From the IMG/VR virus record IMGVR_UViG_3300028569_000139, positions 1-27,799 of that record: a DNA stretch of 27,799 bases. One strand, written 5' to 3'. A program made the translations under genes and the position numbers. The notes under the pieces are model-generated. The model was not told where the DNA came from and searched no databases. It worked only from the letters and a program-made list of their open reading frames with translations. Below are positions 4,914 to 27,799 of the stretch, in pieces. Every line of letters starts with the position of its first letter. The first letter of the stretch is position 1. This DNA is from a virus.

Positions 4914-6347
4914 TTATGTTTCACTTGTTTGAATATCACACTCTCTTTGTATATTAGCCTCAACATCACAAGCAGGAGGAGGGGTTGGAGTTACTGTTGG
5001 TGTAATTGTATTAGTAGGAGTAATTGTATTAGTAGGAGTAATCGTTGGAGTAGGTGTTTCACTACTTGTAGGTGTCATTGTAGGAGTTTCTGTATTTGTT
5101 GGTGTTACCGTTGGAGTAGGTGTTTCACTACTTGTTGGTGTCATTGTAGGAGTTTCTGTATTTGTTGGTGTTACCGTTGGAGTAGGTGTTTCACTACTTG
5201 TAGGTGTCATTGTAGGAGTTTCTGTATTTGTTGGAGTTACCGTATTTGTTGGGGTAACTGTTGGAGTTGGGGTAACACAAACTGTTGAACTATCAACATA
5301 AGCATTTCCAAATCCATCCCCTATTATAACTAAAACATTTGAACCTTCTAAAATAAAGAAAGTTGTTTCTATTGATGATAATAATGTTTGTATTTCTGCT
5401 ATTGTCCAATTATCTGTTCCATCTGGGACTTGAAATAAATATTCCCCTACTTCTAATGGTTGGTCAGCATCATATACTAATATTTGTGCTGGTTGACCAT
5501 AACATAAGCCAGAGTTTGAATCTGATATATAATAATACACCCCATCCAAAGGATTAGATGTAGATGGTGTAATAGTTGGAGTTGGGGTTGTAGTATTGGT
5601 AGGAGTTACTGTATTTGTAGGTGTAATTGTTGGAGTAGGTGTTTCTGTTGGAGTTGTTGTGTTAGTAGGAGTTACTGTATTAGTTGGAGTAGTGGTTGGC
5701 GTAGTAGTTTCTGTTGGAGTTGTAGTATTGGTAGGGGTTACAGTATTTGTTGGTGTAGTGGTTGGTGTAGTAGTTTCTGTTGGAGTTATAGTATTAGTTG
5801 GGGTTACAGTATTTGTTGGTGTAGTGGTTGGTGTAGTAGTTTCTGTTGGTGTTGTAGTATTTGTAGGGGTAATCGTTGGAGTAGGTGTTTCACTACTTGT
5901 TGGAGTAACCGTTGGAGTTTCTGTATTAGTAGGGGTAATTGTTGGAGTAGGTGTTTCACTACTTGTTGGAGTAACCGTTGGAGTTTCTGTATTAGTAGGG
6001 GTAATCGTTGGAGTAGGTGTTTCACTACTTGTTGGAGTGATTGTAGGTGTTGGAGTTTCTGTGCTTGTTGGAGTAGGAGATACACCCCCACTTTGAGTTA
6101 CAGTTGGTGTTACAGTATTTGTTGGTGTAACACTTGGTGTTGGAGATGAAACTGGTTCACCCCCACCAACAACAAATCTTGGTACTAAATCAATCCTTAC
6201 AAAATCATTTTTCTTTGAGTTAAATGGCTCAAAAGATAAGGGTGTTTCTTTTTTTTCTTGTAATACTGGCTGTGCAGTATAAACTTTTTGCTTCCCTAAT
6301 ATACCCCACCTTATGTTATTTTTACCTTTATAATTATTAAACTTCAT
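4914..6347 (-). CDS. Thr/Pro-repeat stalk protein with a central globular domain (477 aa)
   Basis: Layout: N-terminal anchor (about 1-65, basic then mixed); Thr/Pro stalk (about 66-262); globular domain (about 262-358, containing [20 protein letters not shown]); second stalk (about 358-455); and a cysteine-containing end, [18 protein letters not shown]. The stalks are built on a 22-residue super-repeat, for example [11 protein letters not shown] plus VTPTNTE. The end peptide recurs inside the 1959-aa tail protein. It lies between the 181-aa gene and the glycine-rich protein. Extended Thr/Pro tracts are rigid spacers and possible O-glycosylation sites. A surface spike or decoration protein is inferred; no enzymatic motif is visible. 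Confidence 0.7.
5035..5265 (-). repeat. 66-bp tandem repeats, distal stalk
   Basis: Three near-identical 66-bp units encode [18 protein letters not shown] plus TPTM. Units differ at only a few third positions, so the DNA itself is repetitive and could gain or lose units by slippage or recombination. Confidence 0.8.
5585..6060 (-). repeat. 66-bp tandem repeats, proximal stalk
   Basis: Two families of 22-residue units lie side by side: a [17 protein letters not shown] type (about 5640-5850) and a [20 protein letters not shown] type (about 5870-6040), each in about three copies. Both share the 66-bp length of the distal stalk units. Confidence 0.75.
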
Positions 6348-7014: not shown

Positions 7015-7962
7015 TTACGCTAAACCATTAGTGATTATAAATTGTGGGAAAGCAACCTGTGCCCCTACCTTAAAGTTAGCCCTTAATCTAACCTCATCAA
7101 AATCTTGTGAATAGAACATTCTCAAACTTTCTGAATCAGAAAGCAAGTCAGTACCCATAAACATATATGATGCTTTTGATAAAACCATCAAGTTAGAACC
7201 ATTTAAACCTCCAACTGGGTGAACTAAAATGTTAGTTGCTGGGTGGAAAGTTCTCATCTCTGCAAACGATTGGTCTGGGGAGAAGTGGAAGTAATTTGCA
7301 GTTCTAAAATTGATTAAATACTTACGGTAATTAGCGTGCGACATAAATATTACTAAATCGTCAGCATCTGCAATATCATCAGGTATTTCAACCACTAAAT
7401 TATCAACTTGTGCTAATGCAGTTGTTGAAGTCAAAGCAGTTTGACCAGTTACAACAATATTACCAGAATTACCAGTTGTACCTGAACCTACTTGTGCTAA
7501 CAATTGCTTAAATCCAGAGAAACAAGTTGTTGCAGAAGATGCTTGCCATAACAAATTCTCAATATATTGAGAAATTTGTGAAGTTTTCAATTCAGCAATT
7601 TGTGCTTCAAATGGTACAGTTTCGTTATACGATCCTGGTTGTAACAATTGTCCTAACCAATAATCATTCAAGTCACGTGGACATAATGCTTCGTTCACTT
7701 TTAAATCACATACTGTGATGTCCCTTTGTGTAAAGGTTGTAGCACCCGATGTTGTCCATCCACAACTACCGTCTTGAACGTAAAGGGTGCTGTCTAACAA
7801 ATTTATTGCTTGTGTTCCTTTTACACCAGGTTGCACACGAATAATCTTTGCTGTCTCGCCTTCCAAGATTGCTCTACGGATTAACTGACCCCCAACTTCA
7901 TCTGTGTAAGTTGCAAGACCTGCTAAATCAAAAGAAAAATCATATTTTTTGTTATTACTCAT
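7015..7962 (-). CDS. Major capsid protein, HK97-fold type (315 aa)
   Basis: Size, position after scaffold and protease, and sequence pattern all fit a major capsid protein: a short N-terminal arm (FSFDLAGLATYTDEVGGQLI), a mixed E-loop/P-domain region with VCDLKVNEALCPRDLNDYW, a long helix (TSQISQYIENLLWQASS), an A-domain core (DDLVIFMSHANYRKYLINFR), then LVHPVGGLNGSNLMVLSKAS and a basic C-terminal strand (EVRLRANFKVGAQVAFP). It matches the style of capsid proteins in Bacteroidetes siphoviruses rather than the larger crAss-like ones. Codon use and base composition are less AT-biased than neighbours, as expected for a highly expressed gene. No long cleavable delta domain is visible; scaffold is supplied separately. 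Confidence 0.85.
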   Translation of the reverse strand: MSNNKKYDFSFDLAGLATYTDEVGGQLIRRAILEGETAKIIRVQPGVKGTQAINLLDSTLYVQDGSCGWTTSGATTFTQRDITVCDLKVNEALCPRDLNDYWLGQLLQPGSYNETVPFEAQIAELKTSQISQYIENLLWQASSATTCFSGFKQLLAQVGSGTTGNSGNIVVTGQTALTSTTALAQVDNLVVEIPDDIADADDLVIFMSHANYRKYLINFRTANYFHFSPDQSFAEMRTFHPATNILVHPVGGLNGSNLMVLSKASYMFMGTDLLSDSESLRMFYSQDFDEVRLRANFKVGAQVAFPQFIITNGLA

Positions 7963-12878: not shown

Positions 12879-15800
12879 TTATATTGAAAATGAAACAGTA
12901 TCACTTCCTGCTGTGAAAGTTCTTATCTTAAATCCACCTGATGTAGTTTCTGTTGAAGTTAATCCACCACCAACTGTAATTGTATATGCGTCAGGGTATT
13001 TGATTATAACAGCACCTGAACCACCATTTCCACCACCAGGTTGATAATCAGCACCACCGCCACCGCCACCGCCTAAATTTGCAGTTCCGTTGCCACCTTT
13101 ACCTATTGTGTTGCCAGGATTACCAGCATTACCACCTGCTCCACCACCAGTCGTACCAACACCACCAGTGCCTTGCCAAGCACCACCACCTCCACCACCA
13201 GCACGGAAAATAAGTGTGCCTGTTATAGTTGTTATTGAACCTGTTGCACCTACTCCACCAGTTCCACCAACACCACCAGAACCATTACCACCAAGGCTTC
13301 CACCTCCGCCTCCGCCTCCGCCACAACCAGCAGTGCCATCACTTGATGAGTTACCACCAGCAAGACCTTCACTTCCTGTACCAGAACCTCCTGTACCAGC
13401 AGTAGTATCAGCACCACCACCCCCACCAGAGCCACCAGTATTTCCATCTTTTAATGTCCCAGCACCACCGTTATAAGAACCACCTGCTCCACCACCTGTT
13501 GAAGTTATGATTGAAAATACAGAGTCTGAACCATTCACACCTTTTGCATATCCACCAGTTGCACCACCTGCACCACCTGCCCCTACTGTAACTGTATAAT
13601 TTGTTGCAGTTGCACCACTTATAGTTTCATCTTTAAAGCCTCCGCCACCGCCTCCGCCACCGTGCGATGATCCACCTCCTCCTGCACCAGCAAATACAAC
13701 TGCTTGTATATTTAATGCTACTGGTGTTGAACTTGGGGTTACTGTTGGTGTTACAGTATTTGTAGGAGTTACTGTGTTTGTAGGGGTAATTGTGTTTGTA
13801 GGGGTTATAGTATTTGTAGGAGTAACCGTATTAGTTGGCGTTATAGTATTTGTAGGAGTTACTGTATTTGTTGGAGTAATTGTGTTTGTAGGAGTTACTG
13901 TATTTGTTGGAGTAATTGTGTTTGTAGGAGTTACTGTATTTGTTGGAGTAATTGTGTTTGTAGGAGTTACTGTGTTTGTAGGAGTATTAGTTGGAGTAAT
14001 GCTTGATGTAGGGGTTATTGTATTAGTAGGTGTAATAGTATTTGTTGGTGTAACTGTATTAGTAGGAGTTACACTATTAGTTGGTGTGTTTGTAGGGGTA
14101 GGAGTATTTGTAGATGTATTTGTAGGTGTTGGAGTTGGACTTGCAACACCAAATGAAACATTCCCAGTTCCTCCTGAAAATATTGTAACACTAAATCCAC
14201 CTGATGTTGTTGTAGAACCTGTTAAACCAACATCTAATGTAATACTAAATGTATCTGGATATTTGATTATAACAATACCAGAGCCACCATTAGCACCAGC
14301 ACCATCACCACCACCGCCACCGCCACCAGTGTTTATAGTACCAGCAACCGAAGCATTACCTTGACCATCACCACCTCTACCACCTCCACCAAGTCCACCA
14401 GGTCCACCACCATTACCACCACCTGCCGCATACGTACCATGACCACCACCACCACCAGCACGATAAGTAGCAACATTAGTTATTGATGATACAACACCAA
14501 TTCCACCAGTTCCACCAGTAAATTGAATATTACTCCTACTTTGACCAGAAGCACCAGCACCTCCACCACCACCAGCAGGGTATGTTGGAGTTCCACCAGT
14601 ATTATTGCTTGAACCATTTCCACCATTAGAACCTTGATTTGCAGTTCCACTACCACCACTACCCCCTGTTTCCGCTGCGGCTCTACCACCACCACCAGAA
14701 CCACCAGCAGCACCATTACCAGGAATACCACCTCCACCTCCACCACCACCTGTTGATGTTATGGTTGCAAAGACAGAATTTGAGCCATTATTACCTACTG
14801 CACCAAGTCCACCAACAGAATTACCACCTGCACCAACTGTAACAGTATAGTTTGTTGAAGTTGTACCTGTTATTTTTGCTTCTGCAATTGCTCCACCCCC
14901 AGATGTTTCACCAGAAACAGAACTTCTATATCCACCTGCACCACCGCCACCAGAAACACCTGTACCACCAGCAGCACCACCTGCAACAACAACATATTCG
15001 ATTTCAAATAATGCTGGTGGTGTTGGAGTTATAGTTGGGGTAACTGTATTTGTATTTGTAGGAGTTACTGTGTTTGTAGGAGTTACTGTATTTGTAGGAG
15101 TTACTGTATTTGTAGGAGTTACTGTTGGAGTTCTTGTTGGGGTTGGTGTAGGAGTTGGACTTGGGTCTGCTGTTTCTAATGTTGTTACATCACATTCTCT
15201 TTGTATATTTGCTTCAACATCACAAGGAAGAGGTGTTACAAATATTGTTGGTGTTATAGTTGGTGTTACTGTATTAGTTGGAGTAATTGTATTTGTAGGA
15301 GTAATTGTATTTGTAGGGGTAATTGTGTTAGTAGGTGTTATTGTATTTGTAGGAGTAATTGTGTTTGTAGGAGTTATAGTTGGAGTTGGTGTTTCACTTG
15401 ATGTAGGGGTTATAGTTGGAGTTGGTGTTTCACTTGATGTAGGGGTTATAGTTGGAGTAATTGTATTTGTAGGTGTTACTGTATTTGTAGGAGTAATTGT
15501 GTTTGTAGGAGTTATAGTTGGAGTTGTAGTATTGGTAGGGGTTACAGTATTTGTTGGTGTAGTGGTTGGTGTAGTAGTTTCTGTTGGTGTTACTGTATTT
15601 GTGGGGGTAATAGTTGGAGTTGGTGTTTCACTTGATGTAGGGGTTATAGTTGGAGTTGGTGTTTCACTACTTGTGGGGGTAATTGTATTAGTTGGTGTAG
15701 TGGTTGGTGTAGTAGTTTCTGTTGGAGTTATAGTATTGGTAGGGGTTACAGTATTTGTTGGAGTAGGGGTAATAGTTGAGGTTGGTGTGATTGATGCATT

Positions 15801-18758
15801 TGGTGAAGTTGTTATACTTGGTGTTACAGTATTTGTAGGAGTTATCGTAGGAGTTACTGTGCTTGTTGGGGTTGGACTTGGTGCAATAAATGTTGTTGCA
15901 TCTGTTATTGTAAATGCAGAATATCCTGGTATAGATATTGTAACCCCTGAATAAGCCCCTACCAAAGCCAAATCACTAAAATTACCAGCAACACTTACAT
16001 TTAATGTTGATGTTGTAAATGAGGCATTCATTGTAATACCTGTTGTTATTACAATATTTGGTCCAGTTGTTGCTGATAATGTATTAACAAATGAAATGGT
16101 ATAAGGAAGAGGTTTTGTTATATTTGATGTTAATGTATATGCTACATCAATTGAACCTGATGTAACTACCCCTACCAAAGTTAATATTAAAGGTGCTTCT
16201 GGCTCTGGGTCAACGTGTATAATAAATTGAGTTGTTCCTGTACAAGCACAGTTATCATAAACCCCTACCCCAATATCAGTTGGACTTGGAAATGGGTCTA
16301 ATGGATTAACATCTGTTGCTTTACCAATATAAATTTGTTGATAACTATGAGCAGGATTATATGTTGTTTGTGAAACACTAAAACATCCAAGATAAGTTAG
16401 GGGAAGTGTATCACCAGTATAAACCTTAACATATCTGTCAATATAAGCAAATAAATTATAATTTATATCTGAATTAGTATATATTTCCCCCCCTGTACAA
16501 CCGGATAACTTATAGTATAGAACTGGATGAGGGGTATAATCTCTTGTTAATTTAACTAACTCAACATCACATAATCCTGGTTCAATTAAGTTATAGTTAA
16601 TCTTATTTACCCTATAATAATTGTTTTCAATTAATATCTTTTCATTAAAATATAAACCTGCAACCTCATAAGGTTCTAAAAATATCTTTAATTTTAATAT
16701 CTTGTTCTCATTGCTAATTAAATCATTCAAATAATCACTATAATAAACATCAACTATATCATAAGCATAGGGGAAAAGACTTTCATTTGAATCAAAGAAG
16801 TCCTCACTATTGTAATTTGTGTAATGACTAAACTCGTTATAATTAAATGGATAAGTTGTAAATCTATTTAATAATTGGTATTTGTCAAATTCTATATTCT
16901 CTAAATAATATGTTAAATTGTTTGGCCCTGCACTATAATTTTCTGTTGGGTACATTAATCCCCTAAATATTGTTTTTGGCAATACCTTAAATGGTTCAAA
17001 TAATGTTTGGGGTTCACCATTAATCTCTTTGATTTTAACAGCAGCCATATTTGGTATTGTAATATTGGGGTCTCTTTGTGTTCCAAGTATTGTAATATCA
17101 ACATCTGATGAAAATATACCTTCAATTGTTGTTATATTATCTTTGAACTCTTGACTTAATCTTACATTTTCTGAACCAAATAATCTATTTGAAGATATAT
17201 TAAATTGCTGATTGCCAAAATCTTTATCTAATCTATTATTAAAAAATATTGTTCCATTGATATAATTTGTTGTTGGTTCAACAGTAATTGTGCTATCATA
17301 ATCAACCCTTCCAGTCCAATCAATAATATCTCCCTTGCCAATGTAATCAATTATAGGTTCAATAATCAATGTCTTTGGTCTATCAGGTGATGGTATAACA
17401 ACAAAATTAAACATTTTATTTACTGATGTGATAAAATCAATCTGCTTATAATCATTTGGGGGAAACTGTTTAGCATAATCAAAATCCCCAACAAATTGGC
17501 TTGGGGCATTTGTAATTTCGAATGATATATCTCTAAAAGCATCAATACCATAACTTCCTAAATTTATTTCAATTGAAGTAAATGTTGAACCTGTTATTTG
17601 AACTGTTGCAGAACCTATAAATTGGACATTTTGATAATTTCCTGGAAAATCATCACACATTTCTTGTGTGAGCATATTATAGATGATTGGGGGACTTGCA
17701 TTTGCATCTGCAATTAAATCTATTGTAAAATCCGCTGCTGGACAAGCACTATAAACAACATCTGCTGTTAAAATAACATTAAATGTATAACTACCATTTA
17801 GAGAAGCAGGTATTATAAATGATGTTGAGTTTGATAATAAACTAAAATTATTACAAGTTACCCCTGATGAAGGATCAGGCACAGGTATATAATACCCAAT
17901 ATTTGAATTGGTATAACTATAACATACTTGATTATCCCCACTTGCAAATACCCCCTCACCAAATTTTAATGGTAAATAAAACTTTTCAAAATATGATGTG
18001 TTAAAAAATGAACTCTGAATATTATAACCTGCTTGATTAACAATCTGTGTATATAATTCTTTTATTGATATACTTGCTTTTAAATATTGAGATTGCACTG
18101 GTGTGCCAGAAAAACTAAATGTATTTCCAGATATTAAAGGTTTTGGTCTAAATTCTAATAAGGGGGTTTCTGTTGGTATTACATTTGCTGATGTATCATA
18201 ATTATATCCTAAATTATATAAACCAAAAAAGGTTCTACCATCTTCATATGGATAAGATGGTCTTGACCCTGCTCCTGTATATAAGAAATATAGATTGGGG
18301 TCATATTGTGATTTCTCTATAACAGTATTATTAAATGGGTGGCTTAATGATGATAAATCCAAATCATATAAGAATTTATCCTTAATATTTGATGCCAAAT
18401 CACCTACCCCATTATAAAATGTAATGTTATATATTTTTGCTGTCTTATTGATATTGACAACATTTAATCTTATATATCCAGTTAATATCTCATAACCATT
18501 ATATAATATCTGTGCTTCAAATTTAAGTTTGGGGTTAAAATCAATAAATGTGCTTGAAAATTCAAAGAAGTAATTAAATATATCATTGTTCTTCTTTGAG
18601 CCTGGCAAATTAAATTGCTTACTATATGTTGAGTTTTTCTTTGTTATATCTTGAATTTCTGCAAATGATATATTCATCTCCAAAGTTTCATTAGGAAATG
18701 TGTCCAGATATTTTTGCACACCCTCAACTATACATCTTATTTGTAAACCCTCTATCAT
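12879..18758 (-). CDS. Giant tail-tip/adhesin protein with stalks and two glycine-rich domains (1959 aa)
   Basis: Layout: residues 1 to about 955 are the baseplate/tail-tip part (start [40 protein letters not shown] is characteristic of tail proteins in marine Bacteroidetes phages). Then come a Thr/Pro stalk (about 960-1170), a peptide [18 protein letters not shown] (about 1173-1190), a short stalk (to 1245), glycine-rich domain I (about 1248-1535), a third stalk (about 1536-1673) and glycine-rich domain II (about 1678-1959). The two domains share openings such as VVVAGG, a TVTVGAGG core, an ITSTGGG segment and a GGF...VSF closing. A tail fibre fused to a baseplate protein, displaying two receptor-binding heads in series, is the best reading. 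It is 21% of the genome. Confidence 0.8.
13735..14150 (-). repeat. 36-bp repeats encoding the third stalk of the tail-tip protein
   Basis: A 36-bp unit encoding [12 protein letters not shown] is repeated head to tail (clearest at about 13850-13970), with looser Thr/Pro repeats on both sides. The tract joins glycine-rich domains I and II. Confidence 0.8.
15015..15880 (-). repeat. Thr/Pro repeat DNA of the first and second stalks
   Basis: Mixed 18-, 36- and 66-bp related units encode [17 protein letters not shown] and [15 protein letters not shown] runs. Between the two tracts (about 15165-15235) lies a non-repetitive block encoding [11 protein letters not shown], nearly the same DNA as the 3' end of the 477-aa gene (4920-4970). 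Confidence 0.8.
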
Positions 18759-26031: not shown

Positions 26032-26445
26032 TTATTTGAGTTGATATTTGTGGGGAAATTTAACCTTATGTGAATTTACAAATGGAAGCCAAACATCTAC
26101 AAACAAAAAATGATAGAATGTTTTATTTATTTCCCCATTTCCACCATATAGTAAATTGTCAAAATAATAATTGAAGGTATCTTGTTTCATTAATAGTTTT
26201 TCTTGTTTCACTTCTTCTTTAACTTTTTCTTCTTCTTTAACTTTTTTATGAAACTTATCTTCAATTTTATTATGTAAAAATTCATCAAATATTTGTTTTG
26301 ATAATTGAAGGGATGAGATATTACATTGTTCTCCGTATTGTTGTATCATAGTTTTAATTACCAGTATATTAACCTCATCTTCTTGGAAGAGCATAACTTC
26401 CAATAAACTTTTTATTGCTTCTTCCATTTTTTTTACATTACTCAT
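26032..26445 (-). CDS. Unknown early protein with charged coiled coil (137 aa)
   Basis: From the ATG at 26445 (MSNVKKMEEAIKSLL) the protein has an N-terminal helical part (EVNILVIKTMIQQYGEQCNI), a Lys/Glu coiled coil around residues 68-88 (KVKEEEKVKEEVKQEK) and an aromatic C-terminal part (FYHFLFVDVWLPFVNSHKVK). The start overlaps the stop of the winged-helix/repeat protein by 8 bases (ATGAGTAA), so the two are translated together. A partner of the putative replication initiator, such as a loader or accessory factor, is the contextual guess. No ATPase or nuclease motif is seen. Confidence 0.65.
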   Translation of the reverse strand: MSNVKKMEEAIKSLLEVMLFQEDEVNILVIKTMIQQYGEQCNISSLQLSKQIFDEFLHNKIEDKFHKKVKEEEKVKEEVKQEKLLMKQDTFNYYFDNLLYGGNGEINKTFYHFLFVDVWLPFVNSHKVKFPHKYQLK

Positions 26446-27211
26446 AGTCCAATGCATTTAATTTTTCATCATCTGTAAATTTTGAATCAAAATCTCTTTG
26501 AGGATAATCAGATTCTTCTTTAGTTGAAGGTTTATTTTTAAAGTTATTGAACCTGTTGTCAAATGGTTCTTCTTCAATTGATGCTAAATATAAATCAATA
26601 TCATCCCCCACCGAAGGTGGTATAGTTGAAGTATTATTATCAACCCCTTCCATATCTTCAACTAAATCAAAATTTTGCATATTATAGTTAATATTATTAG
26701 ATTCTAATTTATTTTCTAATTTATTTTCTAATTTAGATTCTATTTTATGTAGCCCTGTGTGGTCTAGGGGTAGCCCTGTGTGGTCTAGGGGTAGCCCTGT
26801 GTGGTCTAGGGGTAGCCCTGTGTGGTCTAGGGGTAGCCCTGTGTGGTCTAGGGGTAGCCCTGTGTGAGTAGGGGGTTGCTCTGTGTGAGTAGGGGGTTGC
26901 TCTGTGTGGTCTGGTTCATTCATCTCAATTATAAAAAGTTTTCTTTTATAATTTTTTTCCATTACACGAGTGATTAAACCTACCTCAATTAAATTACTAA
27001 TCATTCTTTTTATTTGTGTTTGTGAAACATCAAATATATCTGCAAATTGTTCATTACTGGCAAAACAATATCCTTCTTTATTTGTTGCCCAATATTTAAT
27101 CTGCCCATATAAACTTGCAGTTAGAAAATCAATATTAAATTTTCTTTTAATTTCATAAGAAGTGAATACTCCCTCTTGACACTTTTGACTTTTTTCTGTA
27201 TATTTATACAT
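26438..27211 (-). CDS. Winged-helix protein with heptapeptide-repeat linker, candidate replication initiator (257 aa)
   Basis: Residues about 10-95 are a winged helix of the replication-initiator/HTH type: LTASLYGQIKYWATNKEGYC, FASNEQFADIFDVSQTQIKR and a wing MEKNYKRKLFIIEM. Residues about 100-155 are a tandem heptapeptide linker (TEQPPTH then GLPLDHT), followed by KLENKLEN repeats and an acidic C-terminus (DLYLASIEEEPFDNRF). The frame reaches a GTG at 27253, but that sits inside a hairpin, so the ATG at 27211 (MYKYTEKS) is preferred. DNA-binding head plus flexible linker plus acidic tail resembles phage O-type initiators that recruit host helicase loaders. No helicase, primase or polymerase is encoded, so the host replisome must be borrowed. 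Confidence 0.65.
   Translation of the reverse strand: MYKYTEKSQKCQEGVFTSYEIKRKFNIDFLTASLYGQIKYWATNKEGYCFASNEQFADIFDVSQTQIKRMISNLIEVGLITRVMEKNYKRKLFIIEMNEPDHTEQPPTHTEQPPTHTGLPLDHTGLPLDHTGLPLDHTGLPLDHTGLPLDHTGLHKIESKLENKLENKLESNNINYNMQNFDLVEDMEGVDNNTSTIPPSVGDDIDLYLASIEEEPFDNRFNNFKNKPSTKEESDYPQRDFDSKFTDDEKLNALDYE
26751..26914 (-). repeat. 21-bp tandem repeats inside the putative initiator gene
   Basis: Five exact copies of a 21-bp unit (AGCCCTGTGTGGTCTAGGGG plus T) run from 26751 to 26855, followed by three diverged units with GAGTAGGGGGTTGCTCTG-type changes. Each encodes one heptapeptide. The units are GC-rich against an AT-rich background and exact at DNA level, which suggests recent expansion. 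A second, 12-bp repeat (about 26705-26740) encodes KLEN copies beside it. Confidence 0.9.
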
Positions 27212-27230
27212 AATTGAATGTTTTTTAATT

Positions 27231-27257
27231 GGGGGGATGTGCTTGTAACACACCCCC
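27231..27257 (-). other. Hairpin in the leader of the putative initiator gene
   Basis: GGGGG-TGTG and CACA-CCCCC arms (27257-27249 and 27241-27231 on the minus strand, one bulged base) surround a 7-base loop, 20 bases upstream of the ATG at 27211 and just after the stop of the 87-aa gene. No T-run follows on the minus strand. It could uncouple the two genes, attenuate transcription or shield the ribosome site. Confidence 0.5.
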
Positions 27258-27265
27258 TATTTTAT

Positions 27266-27529
27266 TTACTTAACTATTGTAAGTAATCTTTTTGCTCTAT
27301 TTCTTAAATCTCTCTCAACTAAATTTTTATCAACTAATGCTGTTATACTTACACTTACCAGCATTGGACATCTTCGGATAATATGCCCCATCTGGTCATT
27401 GTTCAATCTACATACACCGTTATTTTCTTCACAGTCCTGTTTGATAATGCTATATACAATAGCCTGGGTAAAAGTTAGTTCTTCAAATAAAGAGGTTTGA
27501 ACCCCAATCACATAATCATTTGTTTCCAT
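27266..27529 (-). CDS. Small winged-helix DNA-binding protein (87 aa)
   Basis: A helix (TFTQAIVYSIIKQDCEENNG), an HTH (RLNNDQMGHIIRRCPMLVSV then SITALVDKNLVER) and a short wing (LRNRAKRLLTIV). It aligns with the 83-aa protein at 97-348 and with the head of the protein at 26438-27211: all have a Tyr-Ile helix, a G-x-C turn, an N-x-x-x-A/G HTH and an R-x-x-x-I wing. It starts METNDYVIG with a TATATTTATA box 16 bases upstream and is followed by the hairpin in front of the putative initiator gene. Regulation of the early operon is the likely role. Confidence 0.75.
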   Translation of the reverse strand: METNDYVIGVQTSLFEELTFTQAIVYSIIKQDCEENNGVCRLNNDQMGHIIRRCPMLVSVSITALVDKNLVERDLRNRAKRLLTIVK

Positions 27530-27545
27530 ATTTATTTATTTTTAT

Positions 27546-27591: not shown

Positions 27592-27799
27592 TTTTCAAAA
27601 ATATTTGATTATTATTATTATAGTGTTTTATTCTTTATACATTTTCCATATTAAAAAAGGGGGTCATTATCGACCCCCCTTTTTATTTTAGTTCAACACG
27701 AAGTATCTGGTTCGACCCTCTCCATACCTATTAACAAGTTTATACGATATTAAACCATTAATTAATCTGGTAATAGTATCATATTTAACCCCAAGGGCT
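27592..27799. repeat. Right copy of 208-bp terminal duplication
   Basis: Repeats bases 1-208 except for G27672 in place of A81. The base change turns a C-A mismatch of the terminator stem into a C-G pair. Confidence 0.93.
27688..27799 (-). CDS. Second, partial copy of the 83-aa winged-helix gene (3' part)
   Basis: This is the duplicated end of the gene at 97-348, cut by the window edge. It holds the last 36 codons and the stop, without changes. It should be counted once on the circle. Confidence 0.9.
   Translation of the reverse strand, partial: ALGVKYDTITRLINGLISYKLVNRYGEGRTRYFVLN

Follow-up and report, generated by a model that had tools for sequence, protein, structure and literature searches.

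An array of eight 21-bp iteron-like units (26749..26908, minus strand), delimited by TRF and pattern searches, lies inside the replication initiator gene of the phage analyzed in this work, and it very probably represents the iteron part of the phage replication origin, which would be embedded in this gene in the manner of lambda O. The analyzed window, i.e., the whole stretch of 27,799 nt, corresponds to positions 1 to 27,799 of the IMG/VR virus record IMGVR_UViG_3300028569_000139, which may be a fragment. Lambda-O-like origin iterons had already been proposed in the preliminary description of this DNA, and this reading, drawn from sequence comparisons, gains support because the repeats of relatives switch reading frame, the DNA-binding domain and the repeats co-vary, the stability minimum of the window adjoins the array, and there are precedents with the same layout.

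The initiator gene (26438..27211, minus strand) was recognized by an HTH_36 match, PHROG matches and an AlphaFold model. Its product consists of an N-terminal winged helix, followed by a linker encoded by the array and a C-terminal tail conserved in relatives. Pfam HTH_36 (PF13730) was matched by residues 42-80 with 27.7 bits (cut-off 25), and several PHROG replication-initiation families also matched (among them phrog_428, 3.4e-11, and phrog_270, 4.3e-11). The winged-helix DNA-binding domain (approximately residues 20-95; 26926..27154, minus strand), a putative iteron reader, was delimited by the model and by PDB matches. In the AlphaFold model, the winged helix spans residues 20-95, with block-mean pLDDT values of 91-98 up to residue 90, while the linker is predicted to be disordered (block pLDDT 43-55) and the C-terminal tail is of low confidence, only the winged helix being well covered. 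The PDB structural matches to the modelled domain are winged-helix DNA binders, including the plasmid initiator 4pt7 (Z 8.9, 92 residues, rmsd 3.6). Both 4pt7 (titled 'Structure of initiator') and 4pql (titled 'N-Terminal domain of DNA binding protein'), which is also among the matches, are RepA_N structures; these matches of a predicted model speak for the fold and not for the function. No RepA_N profile was found among the Pfam matches of the initiator up to E 0.1, which limits the likeness to 4pt7 and 4pql to the fold level, and the Phage_rep_O (PF04492) cut-off was missed (14.1 bits vs 28.7, E 0.07); judged by profile, the initiator is thus a member of neither family.

The C-terminal tail (26438..26678, minus strand; alignment A1) is kept in close relatives with differing repeats, and it is presumed to contact the replisome. 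A direct search of viral contigs returned no relatives of the whole initiator. The ORF overlapping its 3' end (26032-26457) showed no loader or helicase match in Pfam and PHROG, and no helicase loader was recognized among the window proteins tested. Two further ORFs encode small winged-helix-like proteins, one weakly similar to the initiator domain (27266-27529) and one matching HTH_36 (97-348).

The TRF analysis of the window reported a repeat at 26749-26912 with a period of 21, 7.8 copies and 93% match. The eight CACACAGRGC cores, all within 26752-26908, start (low coordinate) at 26752, 26773, 26794, 26815, 26836, 26857, 26878, and 26899, i.e., in exact 21-bp steps, and all units are read in a single frame. 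The preliminary description had counted five identical and three diverged units, which is correct; of the latter three, two are variants identical to each other and the third is truncated. The order of the units, read along the minus (sense) strand, is as follows: two copies of CACACAGAGCAACCCCCTACT, reading HTEQPPT (26867..26908, minus strand; pattern searches), five exact copies of CACACAGGGCTACCCCTAGAC, reading HTGLPLD (26762..26866, minus strand; found with zero mismatches in the 21-mer search), and the truncated last unit CACACAGGGCTAC (26749..26761, minus strand; pattern searches), which borders an AT-rich element. When up to three mismatches were allowed, the 21-mer occurred 5 times in the window and 0 times in 100 shuffles, and the 10-bp core with one mismatch occurred 8 times, always inside the array (0.9 expected); neither search found a copy of the unit in the leader or in the rest of the window.

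The location of GC-rich repeats inside an AT-rich initiator gene, as previously described, was confirmed both by composition (61% GC in the array vs about 30% in its surroundings) and by the HTH_36 and PHROG matches of the gene product. The exact 21-mer is GC-richer than predicted for its peptide under the phage codon usage (P=0.003), with the rare CTA and GAC codons being used. The palindrome test for this unit gave p=0.43, and the unit has no central A-tract palindrome, a feature frequent among its family. The exact 18-bp unit was absent from all other viral contigs searched, and for this reason the window iteron could not be traced across phages.

Directly beside the array there is a putative DNA-unwinding element (26679..26748, minus strand; stability, TRF and codon test), which contains about four 12-bp repeats (TTAGAAAATAAA) coding KLENKLENKLESNNINYN. 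These AT-rich repeats, located by TRF at 26702-26748, were absent from the preliminary description. By nearest-neighbour energies, no other 60-bp stretch in the entire 27.8-kb window is as unstable as that at 26679-26738, which adjoins the array and lies inside the gene. The rank of this stretch depends on the segment size, as it was third at 40 bp and second at both 80 and 100 bp, where it is surpassed by a less stable stretch, near 27540 and upstream of a small gene. The AT-rich stretch is also AT-richer than its peptide needs under the phage codon usage (P=0.018). In the survey of initiators presented below, 12-bp AT-rich direct repeats following the iterons were counted fifteen times (L105-L264), often as TAATAATACA and coding NNTxNNT; together with those of the window they possibly represent a shared design of the unwinding element. 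Iterons with a flanking AT-rich element make up the layout of the lambda (PMC7466680) and SPP1 (PMC6316719) origins.

For the comparison with close relatives, contigs were collected by a terminase search, the terminase identity to the window being 94% for L004, 92% for L005-L007 and L011, and 78% for L008. The C-terminal tail of the initiator is homologous in all of these, and the linkers differ from that of the window (alignment A1), reading QGGMSVP in L004, TPPRDKSD/TPPATNL in L005-L007 and L011, and ERTCTQDMKELARGD in L008. The L004-L007 contigs stop at the array or inside it, and comparison of the DNA-binding domain covers L008 and L011, in both of which the winged helix is divergent from that of the window. 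The window, L004, L008 and L011 therefore have the tail in common, with different repeats and, where readable, different domains.

The L008 array is composed of GAAAGAACTTGCAC units spaced by 23, 22, 23, 22 and 23 bp, which are read alternately as ERTCT and KELAR, and that of L011 of CCCCCCCGCGACAAATCTGAC units spaced by 23 and 22 bp, for which the two readings are PRDKSD and PATNLT; 45 bp farther along, L011 has one more, partial copy. The same DNA is thus read in two frames in both arrays, which means that the DNA is conserved and not the peptide, a pattern that a repeat kept for its peptide could not produce. Where structural genes on the same contigs encode long peptide repeats, these are all in frame. 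The preliminary description had treated the absence of repeats from close relatives as an argument against origin iterons; wherever the initiator linker of a close relative is covered, it has an array, each time of a different sequence.

Several other features of these genomes were noted. L004 (positions 1-130) and the starts of L005, L006 and L007 show that the contigs end in or at iteron arrays (the L006 linker being diverged), which may reflect either assembly breaks or population variation; since these contigs break there, the assembled copy number may be inexact. The ORF at 26032-26457 has a homologue in L004; searches in L008 and L011 found no counterpart. The initiator start is immediately preceded, within the leader, by a strong hairpin rich in GC (GGGGGTGTG...CACATCCCCC; 27227-27255), which L008 has in nearly the same form; the hairpin at this place in L011 is a different one (GGGGGA...TCCCCC). 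A terminator-like hairpin AAAAAAGGGGGTCATTATCGACCCCCCTTTTT lies between small genes at 27654-27682. Long PTPTNT/TPTSSE peptide repeats occupy 4914-6347 and 12879-18758, in two large, probably structural genes, and their TRF periods are multiples of 3, save for a few marginal rows. No annotated phage was found with the protein of ORF 7015-7962, nor by DNA comparison of the region.

A broader survey comprised 120 distinct HTH_36 initiators from viral and genome contigs, with near-duplicates removed; they were chosen for their likeness to a profile representing typical members, and the window lies at the edge of the sample. A DNA repeat of at least 12 bp was present in the linker of 104 of the 120 initiators, and in 92 of the 120 the spacing was 20-25 bp. 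Repeats lying off the triplet, i.e., switching frame, were found in 66 of the 120. The contrast between gene parts was pronounced, with about 200 repeats in 28.5 kb of linker vs 4 in 29.9 kb of C-terminal parts. Palindromic iterons, typically centered on an A-tract, were recognized in 31/92 cases (p<=0.05). Iteron similarity followed that of the DNA-binding domain (partial rho 0.37, or 0.33 with the domain trimmed; Mantel p=0.001), a correlation partly expected from physical linkage, and the values for the C-terminus were far lower (0.09-0.10). Among HTH_36 initiators deposited in GenBank, that of Lysinibacillus phage vB_LspM-01 carries GGTATTCAG at 22, 22, 21 and 22 bp in all three frames, that of Fusobacterium phage FNU4 carries CCTATCACG at 22, 23 and 24, and that of Cellulophaga phage phi39:1 carries CCCACGACA at 21 and 22.

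These patterns suggest, with moderate confidence, that most phage and prophage initiators of the HTH_36 type, from many bacterial phyla, encode their own iterons in the linker, that frame switching reflects selection at the DNA level, and that the domain and the iterons form one travelling specificity cassette. If this is true, pairing each domain with its array could allow an iteron recognition code to be read off directly, and the clade of the window, with GC-rich iterons lacking the central A-tract palindrome, would have an outlying specificity.

In the mechanism that we infer for this phage, the N-terminal winged helix would bind the 21-bp units, and copies bound two helical turns apart would be aligned on one face of the DNA. 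The initiator-array complex would then melt the adjoining AT-rich 12-mer stretch, and the C-terminal tail may recruit the helicase via a host or other loader, with the peptide encoded by the array serving as a flexible linker only. GC skew, suggested in the preliminary description as an origin check, was computed, but it tracks gene orientation and provides no independent origin signal in the window, as the genes share one strand.

Three other explanations of the array were weighed against origin activity. It could be a peptide repeat only, that is, a flexible heptapeptide linker of which the length or motif matters, produced by recent slippage and with no role for the DNA. Taking this phage alone, a peptide repeat or recent slippage would fit, as all units are 21 bp long and lie in one frame; moreover, the exact identity of the units fits recent duplication, and the structural genes of the same phage contain long in-frame PTPTNT repeats. 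This explanation is nevertheless improbable, given that the same DNA is translated in different frames in homologous linkers, that linker peptides are unrelated between close relatives, that the linker is predicted to be disordered, and that rare GC-rich codons are used in the array.

It is slightly less probable still that the units are initiator sites serving mainly autoregulation or copy-number control, as an operator-like array within the gene, with the origin elsewhere. Plasmid iteron arrays can also limit replication via handcuffing, and this speaks for such a role. The window is possibly a fragment, so another origin could exist, and in SPP1 a second origin lies at a distance from gene 38 (PMC6316719). 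However, the unit is absent from the leader and the rest of the window, a stretch resembling an unwinding element adjoins the array, and the precedents place the origin within the initiator gene. A functionless expansion, neutral or driven by assembly, would agree with the error-prone copy number implied by relatives' contigs ending in or at arrays, but it is hardly credible in view of the arrays, differing in sequence and mostly spaced by 21-24 bp, that occupy the same place in 104/120 distinct initiators.

Reading the array as origin iterons gives an uncultured phage group candidate coordinates for its origin, and frame switching offers a simple test, requiring sequence only, for telling whether repeats inside a gene function as DNA or as peptide. 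Since each gene carries a DNA-binding domain and its presumed target, many domain-site pairs can be collected, which opens a route to learning the rules of site choice by these winged helices. Cassette swapping may also be a way in which phages avoid replication incompatibility.

The architecture of a self-encoded origin is already known from lambda O, SPP1 gp38, TP901-1, 80alpha and pSK41/pPR9 Rep, and the location of the origin inside the initiator gene is experimentally supported for TP901-1 and Tuc2009 (PMC8965321), SPP1 (PMC6316719), 80alpha (PMC5499656) and pSK41 (PMC5703833). Lambda and the window share an N-terminal winged-helix initiator with iterons in the middle of the gene and an AT-rich region flanking them, which is the unwinding region in lambda (PMC7466680). 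The annotated lambda iterons (39034, 39054, 39078, and 39101; spacing 20, 24 and 23) start in all three frames, and they are dyads around A-tracts, 20-24 bp apart, unlike the units found here, which are direct 21-mers rich in GC and have no significant dyad. Furthermore, lambda O is a Pfam Phage_rep_O protein, a family for which the window initiator stays below the cut-off (14.1 vs 28.7 bits), and lambda has the P loader, while a P-like loader was not recognized among the window proteins tested.

SPP1 gp38 binds direct repeats within its own gene (PMC6316719), and so do the replisome organizers TP901-1 ORF13 and Tuc2009 Rep (PMC8965321), although the latter two did not match the HTH_36-type profile built in this analysis. 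Cellulophaga phage phi39:1 gp41 is, like the window protein, an HTH_36 initiator in which the domain is immediately followed by repeats (CCCACGACAAAATT, at 21 and 22 bp), but its iteron is different and its gene is followed directly by a replicative helicase gene. In the case of 80alpha, a deletion of ORF20 was not complemented in trans, from which its authors inferred an origin inside ORF20, and ORF20 plus ORF21 were enough for autonomous replication (PMC5499656). The 80alpha record has a rep_origin annotated within the initiator gene, with a DnaC-like loader gene following it; its gp20 C-terminus is Phg_2220_C, and neither this nor the loader was recognized in the window. The C-termini of 80alpha gp20 and of ORF016 of Staphylococcus phage 77 are near-identical, with different domains and repeats, which resembles the clade of the window, where the domain and repeats vary over a conserved C-terminus.

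The N-terminal winged helix of the pSK41 Rep protein (RepA_N) binds Rep boxes inside the rep gene, the C-terminal domain is conserved, and the linker encoded by the origin is dispensable as protein; in the chimeric pPR9 Rep, a segment that carries a pfam13730 (HTH_36) domain has taken the place of the RepA_N domain and origin, and replication is retained (PMC5703833). pSK41 is a plasmid, and its C-terminal domain binds DnaG primase, whereas the window is viral and its initiator does not match RepA_N, but the pSK41/pPR9 Rep proteins and the window initiator are alike in having a winged helix, repeats inside the gene, an origin-type linker and a conserved C-terminus.
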